From Leptolyngbya sp. NIES-2104 (lineage in GTDB: Bacteria > Cyanobacteriota > Cyanobacteriia > Leptolyngbyales > Leptolyngbyaceae): a DNA stretch of 64,000 bases. The stretch's first letter is position 1. Every line of letters starts with the position of its first letter. Of the stretch, positions 6,443 through 14,097 are shown piece by piece. Under the pieces are notes generated by a model, which had not been told where the DNA came from, made no database searches, and saw only the letters and a list, made by a program, of their open reading frames with translations. The position numbers were made by a program, and so were the translations under genes. The stretch is taken from assembly GCF_001485215.1 (NCBI RefSeq), contig NZ_BBWW01000001.1, positions 2,170,001 to 2,234,000 of the forward strand, written 5' to 3'.

Positions 6443-7282
6443 TCAATTCGGCGGCATCACCACACGACGGGCAAGACCGAGCGATCGTAATACCTGAATC
6501 GCCCACCACGTCACATCAATCTCCCACCATTTCCGACCTGCTTTCGCCACATTCGGTTGAGCATGGTGATTGTTGTGCCAACCTTCTCCGTAGGTAATCA
6601 ACGCCGCCCACCAGAGATTCCGCGAATTATCTTCCGCCTCATATGTTCTATAACCAAACAAATGAGTCGCAGAGTTAATAAACCAAGTACTGTGCCACAA
6701 GAACACGGCTCTTAGCACCAAACCATAAATAATAAACGACCAGCCACCCAGCAGATAAAGCACGATCGCGACTGGAATTTGCAGCATCAAATAGTTCTCA
6801 GTTCGATCGAGCCAACGATAAAACGGATCGCGATCCAAATCCGGCGCAAACCGTCGATAAGACTCATAGTTGAAAAACTTTTCACGCGGATACAGCACCC
6901 AGCCCATGTGACTCCACCAAAATCCGCGCTTCGCCGAATACGGATCATTGTCTACATCTTCCGTATGCAAATGGTGCATCCGATGTCCCGCTACCCAAAA
7001 AATCACTCCTCCTTGCAATGCCAGCGTTCCGATTACCGCCAGCGCATACTCCACCACTTTAGGAACCTGCAAACTCCGGTGTGTCAGCAATCGGTGAAAG
7101 CCCAAACAAATCCCGATACTACCGAACAACCAATGCAGAAGAATCATCACACCCAGCGCTTTCCAGGAAAAAAACCAGGGGGCAGTCAGCGCCAGCGCGT
7201 GAAAGGCTCCGAAAAACGCAACGTTCGTCCACTCCAATTTCAGCGTTTGTTCAGAGTCCACTTGAACAGAATTAGAAGTCAT
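6443..7282 (-). CDS. desC: Delta-9 acyl-lipid fatty acid desaturase
   Basis: A 279-residue membrane di-iron desaturase that introduces the first double bond into acyl chains of membrane lipids. The three histidine boxes are intact: HRLLTH at residues 63-68, HRMHH at 100-104 and HNNHH at 236-240. Two hydrophobic pairs flank them (about 22-60 and 168-205). Length and the GVIFWVAGHRMHHLHTEDV region match the DesC class of cyanobacteria. It diverges from a TetR-type gene. The shared upstream DNA holds two identical palindromes (7386-7402 and 7432-7448), so repression by that regulator is a reasonable inference. The start ATG at 7282 gives a normal cytosolic N-terminus. Confidence 0.92.
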   Translation of the reverse strand: MTSNSVQVDSEQTLKLEWTNVAFFGAFHALALTAPWFFSWKALGVMILLHWLFGSIGICLGFHRLLTHRSLQVPKVVEYALAVIGTLALQGGVIFWVAGHRMHHLHTEDVDNDPYSAKRGFWWSHMGWVLYPREKFFNYESYRRFAPDLDRDPFYRWLDRTENYLMLQIPVAIVLYLLGGWSFIIYGLVLRAVFLWHSTWFINSATHLFGYRTYEAEDNSRNLWWAALITYGEGWHNNHHAQPNVAKAGRKWWEIDVTWWAIQVLRSLGLARRVVMPPN

Positions 7283-7385: not shown

Positions 7386-7402
7386 TGCAAGTGACACTTG
7401 CA
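7386..7402. promoter_or_regulatory. Perfect 17-bp palindrome, likely operator 1
   Basis: TGCAAGTGACACTTGCA is a perfect dyad (8+1+8) about 104 bases upstream of the desaturase ATG. The same sequence, differing only in the central base, recurs 46 bases further on. A site of this size and symmetry next to a TetR gene fits a TetR-dimer operator. Binding is inferred, not shown. Confidence 0.75.
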
Positions 7403-7431
7403 TTTGTAGCCTAACAACGAATGCGCTTTTC

Positions 7432-7448
7432 TGCAAGTGCCACTTGCA
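7432..7448. promoter_or_regulatory. Perfect 17-bp palindrome, likely operator 2
   Basis: TGCAAGTGCCACTTGCA is the second copy of the dyad and ends six bases before the ATG at 7455 of the TetR-type gene. An alternative GTG start (7437) lies inside the palindrome, which argues for the ATG. Occupancy here would block translation-start-proximal transcription, so autoregulation is likely. Confidence 0.75.
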
Positions 7449-7454
7449 TCTTCT

Positions 7455-8654
7455 ATGTCTACTCCCCGCAACACGACCCGCCAAAGGCTGATTCAAGCGG
7501 CACTGGAGCTATTTACAGCCCACGGTGTCACCGACACCACCACAAGACAAATCGCTGAATTAGCAGACGTAAATGAAGTGACGCTGTTTCGGCATTTCGG
7601 CAATAAACACGGATTACTGTTAGCCGCGATCGAAGAAGCCGCTGTGTTCATCGAACTCGGTCAAACGCTCGTGCACCAAGCCGAACAAGCCGCAGGAATG
7701 GATCAGGCACTCAAAGAATACGCCACCGCCTGCCTTGAAGCCCTTGAACGAGTTCCAGAAATGGTGCGATCGGTGGTCGGAGAAGCCGGACAATATCCCG
7801 CTGAAAATCGTAAAGCGATCGGGCGGGGTTTCACCCAAGCAAATCGCTACGTCGCTCAATACTTCGATGAAATGATCCAGCGTCGTCAAATGCAGCCCAA
7901 TCTTCCAGCAGAAACCCTTGCAAGTCTGCTTAATGGAATGCTGCTCGGATACGCTGTGATCGAATTCACCAGCGAATTTCACGAACTTTGGCAAAGTCGA
8001 GAAGAATTTCTCACCAATCTTGTCACCCTATTTTTACAGGGTGCGATTCAACCTTCTGAACCCATCTACTCTGAGGTTGAGGATCTTCCCGCTGATACTG
8101 TTCACCTGATTTTGCAACGCGCCAAGAAGCGAGGATTACAAGATTACGCGATCGCTTATGTGCTGTTTGGTGCAGGACTTAGTGCCGAGGAAGTTGTGCA
8201 ATTAACGCGATCGCACTACCATTCCACGCGACATCAACAAGCACTACACATTCCCAACGGACAAGTTCGTCCGCTCAATCAGTGGATTTTAGGAAAACGC
8301 TATGGTTCTTACGCAAAAAATCCATTAACTCAGTGGCTCAAAAGTCGAAAAGATGTTGTTCCTGCCATGTTTCTGAATTCCAGCGGTCAGCCGATCACCG
8401 AAGCTGATTTATCACAACGCTGGAATCATTTTACTGAAGACATTCAGAACGAACCTCCCCCAAAAATCGATCAAGCTTACCCGACTTGGTGCGTTGAATT
8501 GCTCATGCGTGGAATGCCGATCGCAGATTTACAAGTGCTCACGCGACAAGACCTGAAACAGTTGCAGCCCTTTGTCGATCGAGCTAGGGAAAAAGCCGCT
8601 TTAGAACAAGCGATTCGCCTAGATCAGCCGCCTCGAATCAAATCAAATACATAG
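7455..8654 (+). CDS. TetR-family regulator with extra C-terminal recombinase-like domain
   Basis: A 399-residue protein from ATG 7455, twice the usual TetR length. Residues 8-55 form a clear TetR DNA-binding domain (RLIQAALELF...TTTRQIAELADVNEVTLFRHF). Residues 60-197 look like a normal TetR ligand/dimer domain. Residues about 215-385 are additional and follow the layout of a tyrosine-recombinase catalytic domain: GLQDYAIAYVLFGAGLSAEEV like RDxALxxLLxxTGLRxSEL, then AMFLNSSGQPITEADLSQRW, then WCVELLMRGMPIADLQVL like the HxLRH...G...IQ..LGH part. The catalytic Arg, His and Tyr appear to be missing (for example Ser243 where Arg is expected). It probably controls desC and itself; the second-domain reading is inference. 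Confidence 0.85.
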   Translation: MSTPRNTTRQRLIQAALELFTAHGVTDTTTRQIAELADVNEVTLFRHFGNKHGLLLAAIEEAAVFIELGQTLVHQAEQAAGMDQALKEYATACLEALERVPEMVRSVVGEAGQYPAENRKAIGRGFTQANRYVAQYFDEMIQRRQMQPNLPAETLASLLNGMLLGYAVIEFTSEFHELWQSREEFLTNLVTLFLQGAIQPSEPIYSEVEDLPADTVHLILQRAKKRGLQDYAIAYVLFGAGLSAEEVVQLTRSHYHSTRHQQALHIPNGQVRPLNQWILGKRYGSYAKNPLTQWLKSRKDVVPAMFLNSSGQPITEADLSQRWNHFTEDIQNEPPPKIDQAYPTWCVELLMRGMPIADLQVLTRQDLKQLQPFVDRAREKAALEQAIRLDQPPRIKSNT

Positions 8655-8679: not shown

Positions 8680-8888
8680 AGAGGATGCTTGAAAAGTATA
8701 AAAAGTCTTTTCGCTCTCGTTTGACTCCCGCCCTGAAATGAATTTCGGGCTAACCGTGGAAAGTCTACTGAAGTAGACTGGGAGCTAGTTTCAAGTTCTT
8801 AGTCCATTTCAATGGACTTGCGCCGATTAGCCCGAAATTCATTTCAGGGCGGGCTGCGGCAACAACGATTACTTCGCAAACATTCTCT
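8680..8888. repeat. Palindromic repeat family, copy B (most complete)
   Basis: The outer ends AGAGGATGCTTGAAAAGTA (8680-8698) and, inverted, ACTTCGCAAACATTCTCT (8871-8888) form imperfect terminal repeats. The core arms 8727-8753 and 8827-8853 are perfect 27-base complements. Inside are hairpins AGTCTACTGAAGTAGACT (8762-8779) and AGTCCATTTCAATGGACT (8801-8818). It fills the space between the convergent TetR and livG genes, and no ORF lies inside it. Copy D is the same element in the opposite orientation. Confidence 0.85.
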
Positions 8889-13897: not shown

Positions 13898-14097
13898 GAA
13901 GATGTACGAAAAATCTTTCCGCTCTCGTTGCGTTCCCGCCCTGAAATGAATTTCGGGCTAATCGGCGCAAGTCCATTTCAATGGACTAAGAGTATTGAAA
14001 TCAGTTCGGAGTCTACTTCAGTAGACTTTCCACGATTAGCCCGAAATTCATTTCAGGGCGGGCTGTGGCAACGATCGAAGAATTTCCAAACCTCCTC
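13898..14097. repeat. Palindromic repeat family, copy D
   Basis: The core arms at 13935-13961 and 14036-14062 are perfect 27-base complements, with the same sequence as copy B but with the two inner hairpins in reverse order. It is therefore copy B in the opposite orientation. The right outer end (TTTCCAAACCTCCTCTTA, read inverted as TAAGAGGAGGTTTGG) ends exactly at the accA stop codon. It occupies half of the 433-base gap between accA and the SDR gene. The rest of the gap (13665-13897) holds no gene I can support; it includes the likely SDR promoter region. Confidence 0.85.

Follow-up and report, generated by a model that had tools for sequence, protein, structure and literature searches.

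Transcriptional regulators of the TetR family are usually about 200 residues long; in general, they bind palindromes as dimers, repress transcription by overlapping promoters, and regulate their own genes. The catalytic domains of tyrosine recombinases clamp DNA and join their partners via a C-terminal helix. Delta-9 desaturases make the first double bond of membrane fatty acids and help set membrane fluidity. Recombinase domains that have been domesticated are described for eukaryotes, namely the Crypton-derived DUF3504 genes, Gcr1, and Cbf2 (PMC3212892). Here, we analyzed a window (i.e., a stretch of 64,000 nucleotides from Leptolyngbya sp. NIES-2104; contig NZ_BBWW01000001.1, positions 2,170,001 to 2,234,000) in which a TetR regulator of double the usual size, with a recombinase-derived second half, lies beside a desC-type desaturase gene and two putative operators (Table 1).

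TABLE 1 Features of the regulator locus, in coordinates of the window
Feature	Residues	Position	Strand	Evidence
desC-type fatty-acid desaturase, presumed target		6443..7282	-	PF00487 E 1.7e-21; adjacent orthologue in 110/110 loci
Putative operator 1, perfect palindrome GCAAGTGACACTTGC, desC side		7387..7401	.	
31-bp inter-operator spacer with conserved TAACA/TAGCA element		7402..7432	.	Consensus; dereplicated spacers
Putative operator 2, perfect palindrome GCAAGTGCCACTTGC, 7 bp before regulator ATG		7433..7447	.	
TetR head, helix-turn-helix and TetR core	1-198	7455..8048	+	PF00440 E 1.3e-13; conservation
Variable linker	199-206	8049..8072	+	Conservation 0.36; length differs across alignment
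Degenerate tyrosine-recombinase catalytic domain	207-391	8073..8627	+	PF00589, XerA profile match, hhalign
Ser243 codon, catalytic Arg-I column		8181..8183	+	Column composition, 88 rows
Family signature NQWI-GKRYGSY--N (consensus)	274-289	8274..8321	+	Conservation 0.89, 49 rows
Phe373 codon, nucleophile Tyr column		8571..8573	+	Y in 83/88 rows; alignment

The regulator gene (7455 to 8654, plus strand) translates as a single uninterrupted frame of 399 amino acids with no internal stop, and an alternative GTG start at 7437 falls within operator 2. The N-terminal half carries the features of the TetR family: the TetR_N helix-turn-helix was matched over residues 12 to 58 (51 bits; curated Pfam cut-off, 24). 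Beside the gene, two perfect 15-bp palindromes (i.e., putative sites) begin at 7387 and 7433. A reading made from the sequence alone, without database searches (the sequence-only reading), had proposed a TetR head of about 200 residues, and the first 198 residues do belong to this family. Just downstream of the regulator, a 127-bp element (8727 to 8853) resembles small repeats of the REP or MITE type, its inverted arms of 60 nt being 82% complementary; its end motifs recur at 13939 and 14036 (second copy, about 13939 to 14058).

The fusion and an upstream divergent desaturase gene were present in all 110 of the orthologous loci fetched first (sets of 30 and 80, some from the same genomes). The sequence-only reading had asked whether the fusion stands beside desC in other cyanobacteria, which it does, and whether two separate frames had been joined by a sequencing error, which the 110 fused loci contradict. 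A sequencing or frameshift artefact as the origin of the fusion is ruled out by the same one-frame build in many genomes. The fusion is split between frames in a few relatives (L138, L172, L174, L180, and L191), and the pieces of these were searched separately. In a wider set (151 unique loci), the desaturase gene is divergent at 148 and, at one (Gloeobacter), lies downstream of the regulator on the same strand; at the remaining two (L183, whose upstream end is cut, and L201), no desaturase gene was found within the available DNA. The second-half domain occurred in 36 of 58 relatives, at one place per genome (in G044, a single frame in two pieces). When 292 genomes were drawn evenly from the phylum, 32 contained the TetR orthologue (E <=6.1e-49; paralogues start at 1.5e-35, leaving a clear gap), and 30 of these carry the domain. 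At the level of the class, 193 of 388 genomes have a TetR orthologue at E 1e-38, and about half are without one.

Gloeobacter also carries the fusion. The genome concerned is very probably that of Gloeobacter violaceus PCC 7421, because the end of the desaturase frame coincides with the coordinate given for gvip390 (3057506 to 3058357), a gene marked delta-9 in PMC2593844. The same paper describes this species as one of the earliest organisms to diverge; since such a lineage carries the fusion, the fusion may be very old, the rival explanation being a transfer of the fusion into Gloeobacter. In Gloeothece citriformis, a plasmid has kept the regulator, the divergent desaturase gene, and both sites, 47 bp apart. 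This plasmid (pP742403; locus L143) is typed as mobilizable, and genes annotated as an orange-carotenoid-protein N-terminal domain protein and a light-harvesting-like protein lie near the regulator-desaturase pair.

We compared the second half with recombinase profiles. Taken alone, that of the window protein matched Phage_integrase (PF00589) with E 3.8e-5 and 24.0 bits, just below the curated Pfam cut-off of 27.1; its match to XerC was weak (E 0.002), those to XerD and to archaeal XerA were weaker still, and a PHROGs search assigned it no family. When second halves of relatives were scanned singly, 45 of 49 matched PF00589 at E <=0.01 (best, 2.9e-11), so that the search with phage integrase models suggested by the sequence-only reading came out positive for the family and just under the cut-off for the window protein. 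Four more divergent fusions were scanned whole: L025 and L029 exceeded the cut-off (31.5 and 37.5 bits), and L026 and the Gloeobacter fusion (L141) had no PF00589 match at E 0.01. A profile built from 49 second halves matched archaeal XerA (PDB 4a8e) with E 3.6e-6. In profile-profile comparisons (hhalign), nearly the whole domain was aligned both with nine recombinases of the same genome (89.9% probability; E 1.7e-6) and with a second recombinase set (86.6%; E 4.5e-6), two tests that overlap because the second set consists of 2 of the 20 XerC-type loci fetched plus own-genome recombinases. The controls remained far lower (all 20 column-shuffled profiles, <=0.55%; the TetR half, 0.2%). About nine residues within the stretch from 274 to 289 are unmatched in the recombinase profile (a gap of 9). 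As far as sequence can tell, the second half is homologous to the catalytic domain of tyrosine recombinases.

No close active parent recombinase was found among the relative genomes, the own genome, and the phage and plasmid records. With the second-half profile, the own-genome recombinases gave weak matches only (best other E, 0.0015), phage records gave no match, and plasmid records gave one, which is itself a full fusion. In G310, a distant member of the phylum, a frame of 338 residues (contig 39, 2707 to 3138) gave a weak match to the profile (E 3.5e-6); this frame may encode an ordinary recombinase.

At the Arg-I, HxxR histidine, Arg-II, His/Trp-III, and tyrosine columns, the window protein has S243, D339, Y342, Q365, and F373, i.e., every catalytic residue checked is replaced. 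In 88 aligned rows (the window protein, 80 loci of one fetched set, and 7 of the 30 loci of another), the Arg-I column reads S77, T4, L3, R1, D1, K1, and E1; histidine is found in no row at the HxxR position, and the other columns contain mainly Q76 and R7 (Arg-II), C46 and W30 (His/Trp-III), and Y83 and F5 (Tyr). The motif assignment relies on these alignments and on general knowledge of tyrosine recombinases. Loss of Arg-I (87/88) and of the HxxR histidine (88/88) is general, while loss of the tyrosine is limited to a few members. L025 has both residual arginines (Arg-I and Arg-II), and, judged from the alignment, the residual arginines stand at positions expected of an active ancestor. The sequence-only reading was right to place Ser243 at the catalytic arginine; the changed histidine and tyrosine that it named are present in the window protein (D339 and F373), but the tyrosine change does not extend to the family. 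The core-binding domain of tyrosine recombinases is also missing: the TetR head fills residues 1 to 198, and the XerC and XerA matches start beyond the N-terminal part of those proteins. What the regulator shares with tyrosine recombinases is homology of the catalytic domain, with the window protein alone staying below the Pfam cut-off; it is a TetR protein by membership and a recombinase by descent, not by membership.

The second half is under purifying selection. Within the genus, its dN/dS was 0.089, 0.098, 0.109, 0.114, and 0.131 (five comparisons; dS was undefined in a sixth), and that of the TetR half was 0.038 to 0.059 (six comparisons); these ratios are rough, as dS ranged from 0.7 to 1.9 and was near or above 1 in several comparisons. 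The second half changes at about twice the rate of the TetR half. Over 49 rows, from relatives picked by similarity as for the selection figures, conservation was 0.85 in the helix-turn-helix, 0.79 in the TetR core, and 0.36 in the linker; the best-conserved parts of the second half were residues 274 to 289 (0.89), 290 to 300 (0.91), 340 to 353 (0.90), and 370 to 390 (0.86), and 47 columns have one residue in >=95% of the rows. The pI of the second half varied from 6.2 to 9.7 in seven rows, and its charge is not consistently positive. Thus, the idea of a TetR regulator with a dead tyrosine-recombinase-like domain, put forward in the sequence-only reading, gains support from the profiles, the conservation of the fusion, and dN/dS. 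Two marks of Crypton-like domestication (i.e., the dN/dS values and the loss of catalytic residues) are observed, and a role in transcription regulation would follow from the TetR head and the sites.

The promoter region contains two perfect palindromes (GCAAGTGNCACTTGC) 46 bp apart, and the 6.39-Mb genome has no other exact copy; at <=2 mismatches, there are 17 further places, all with two mismatches (reversed control pattern, 27 places). Upstream of the fusion, the pair was found in 108 of 110 loci at <=4 mismatches, a limit that lets up to 4 of the 14 fixed positions differ and on which many site matches depend. The exceptions are L092, where the pair lies farther out from the regulator and is still 47 bp apart, and L023, where the sites are 85 bp apart. 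At <=3 mismatches, we observed 1.98 site matches per locus versus 0.012 in shuffled upstream DNA. Of the 139 usable loci with the domain in the wider set, 138 carry two or more sites at <=4 mismatches (136, plus L092 and L209; exception, L179); under stricter settings (<=3 mismatches and 20 to 90 bp apart), 128 of 139 do, or 130 when L092 and L209 are counted, the latter with its pair far from the regulator and 52 bp apart. Searched genome-wide in the even draw of 292, a degenerate paired pattern turned up in 27 genomes, with a single occurrence per genome, and the genomes listed had no control match. The 32 regulator-bearing genomes of the draw include all 27 with the pattern, which is absent from the remaining 260. 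Where present, the pattern lies upstream of the regulator (farthest, about 530 bp, in G222). The regulator genomes without it are G038, G046, G094, G121, and G172. These pairs in relatives and this specificity support and extend the earlier proposal of two operators beside desC. Paralogous TetR proteins bearing the same sites were ruled out, as none of 8 paralogue loci, examined over 4.5 to 5.5 kb, has a site (<=3 mismatches) or a desaturase gene.

The operators lie 46 to 48 bp apart in 110 of the 134 divergent loci that bear the domain (51 of 71 once dereplicated); other spacings (42, 52, 58, 60, 70, 72, 83, and 85 bp) occur in single loci or small groups. The median deviation of the spacing is 1 bp, versus 19 bp (31 bp dereplicated) for the distance to desC, and the start codon of the regulator likewise keeps a near-constant distance from operator 2 (median deviation, 2 bp). 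Because dereplicated spacers are on average 54% (46-bp class) and 48% (47-bp class) alike versus 83% and 86% for the operators, the length of the spacer seems more constrained than its sequence, the TAACA-like element apart. This element (TAACA or TAGCA) occupies a nearly fixed place and is conserved while the remaining spacer varies. There is a hint of half-turn steps in the helical phasing (42, 47, 52, and 58 bp; few loci). Inspection of the spacer consensus by eye for -35 and -10 boxes around the operators yielded no convincing promoter. In Gloeobacter violaceus, both perfect palindromes are found 48 bp apart before the desaturase gene rather than before the regulator, an indication that desC is the primary target. 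Three loci of one genus (L023, L207, and L212; genus g31, family f13) have operators 72 to 85 bp apart and an extra palindrome (<=1 mismatch) 561 to 564 bp from the outer operator, apparently inside the desaturase gene; DNA looping might be involved there.

Nine orthologues lack the domain (L137, L184 to L189, family f5, seven genomes; L190; and L136), and seven of them have one site; two sites are present in L136 (47 bp) and L188 (49 bp). Conversely, L179 bears the domain and has a single site. Three loci were excluded from these counts: L173, whose frame runs into the contig end; L183, whose upstream DNA is missing; and L177, whose contig breaks off shortly after the TetR head, the start of the domain being seen in another frame. 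A tree built from 85 TetR heads by a quick method puts the absence of the domain at three separate points, and domain and pair change together in at most two of these: the absence in L136 keeps the pair, and six of the seven members of the f5 group have one site. A tree-corrected sign test on independent pairs gave a median p of 0.5, so that the link between domain and pair was not significant. The association is suggestive and no more. A strict rule by which the domain requires two operators is ruled out by L136, L188, and L179. The earlier proposal that the domain links the operators is thus compatible with the near-constant spacing and the single-site orthologues, and weakened by those three loci and by the sign test.

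The regulator very probably controls desC, a prediction with strong comparative support. We infer that TetR dimers bind the two near-identical palindromes in the shared promoter region; because operator 1 is on the desC side and operator 2 directly precedes the regulator start, binding would most likely repress both genes. The recombinase catalytic domain appears to have been domesticated, with catalysis lost, the core-binding domain gone, and the TetR head in its place. Since recombinase catalytic domains clamp DNA and join partners, the present use of the fossil domain would most likely be to tie together two dimers bound at the operators or to grip the approximately 30 bp between them, leading to cooperative binding. 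To this overall picture (i.e., an old, autoregulated, local controller of desC whose dead recombinase domain bridges two dimers or grips the DNA between them), we give about an even chance. More tentatively, and with a probability clearly short of even, a TetR protein may have captured the recombinase domain near the base of the cyanobacteria, its clamp measuring and bridging operators about 47 bp apart, and the synapse having been reused for cooperative repression of the first membrane-lipid desaturation. The pair stays paired where it is far from the regulator (L092 and L209), which counts for bridging. Against bridging, the near-constant distance from operator 2 to the start codon could mean that the spacing is set by promoter geometry, and 46 to 48 bp (about 4.4 to 4.6 helical turns) would place the dimers on opposite faces of the DNA; the deviating spacings of some loci and the charge of the domain, which is not consistently positive, also count against it. 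The Xer core site is close in size to the spacer of about 30 bp, and this may be a coincidence.

The other explanations concern what the second half is and what it does. A chance resemblance to recombinases, with a fold of some other kind, is very improbable: the subthreshold score of the window protein, the PHROGs result, and the unmatched L026 and Gloeobacter proteins would fit it, but most relatives (45 of 49) match PF00589, two of the four divergent fusions score above the cut-off, the family profile finds XerA where shuffled controls fail, and the arginines kept by some members fall exactly in the Arg-I and Arg-II columns. If the domain were a recombinase still at work (e.g., inverting the promoter segment between the palindromes), the tyrosine kept in 83 of 88 rows and the Arg-II kept in 7, including L025 with its Arg-I, would be expected; this reading is barely credible, given that no row has the HxxR histidine, one has Arg-I, the window protein is devoid of every catalytic residue checked, and the relative orientation of regulator and desaturase is constant in 110 of 110 loci. 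Rather better, though still improbable, is a structural remnant without specific function, tolerated through its fusion to a useful TetR head. Its absence at three places in the tree while the regulator-desaturase pair persists speaks for such a remnant; the low dN/dS (0.089 to 0.131), the 47 near-invariant columns, and the presence of the domain in 30 of 32 orthologues of the even draw speak against it.

A further alternative, somewhat doubtful if far from negligible, makes the fossil domain a sensor or a partner-binding module, unrelated to the spacing, that signals to the TetR head (candidate signals being acyl carrier protein, a lipid, or a redox- or cold-linked partner); the two sites would then serve the two promoters. 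Such a role would account for the conservation maxima in the family-specific stretch, the helix that follows it, and the two later segments including the tail (370 to 390), for the nearly fixed position of operator 2 relative to the regulator start codon, and for the two sites that L136 and L188 keep without the domain. It fits less well with the single site in seven of nine domain-less orthologues and with the TetR core, the normal ligand binder, being itself well conserved (0.79).

Both halves of the protein belong to known families; we did not find the TetR-recombinase union, its spread, and its paired site described. Within the open-access literature searched, judged by titles and the beginnings of abstracts, neither a TetR-recombinase regulator nor a dedicated desC repressor in cyanobacteria was described. 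With its wide conservation and its precise, near-unique paired site, this candidate would offer a direct handle on desC control. The architecture of a recombination complex may here have been reused for cooperative repression. Like other TetR/AcrR regulators, the protein has an N-terminal helix-turn-helix, a TetR core, palindromes beside its gene, a divergent target, and probable autoregulation; unlike them, it has about 400 residues, an extra recombinase-derived domain, and two sites at a near-fixed spacing. The second half of Mce3R is a second TetR unit (a double-TetR build), not a recombinase domain. In chain length, this TetR-type repressor (PDB 9b7y; 406 residues) resembles the present regulator. 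With XerA, XerC, and XerD (PF00589), the similarity in sequence order covers nearly the whole catalytic domain, whereas the loss of catalytic residues, the TetR head in place of the core-binding domain, the family-specific insertion, and the fixed genomic neighbor set the regulator apart. By analogy, the closest precedent is the domesticated Crypton recombinases of eukaryotes, which, according to PMC3212892, also combine a recombinase domain with a broken catalytic site and are in many cases found in transcription regulators; they differ in being eukaryotic, in deriving from Crypton transposons, in having other DNA-binding partners, and in having no paired bacterial operator. The cyanobacterial regulator would parallel, in bacteria and probably at great age, the eukaryotic domestication of tyrosine recombinases in regulators.
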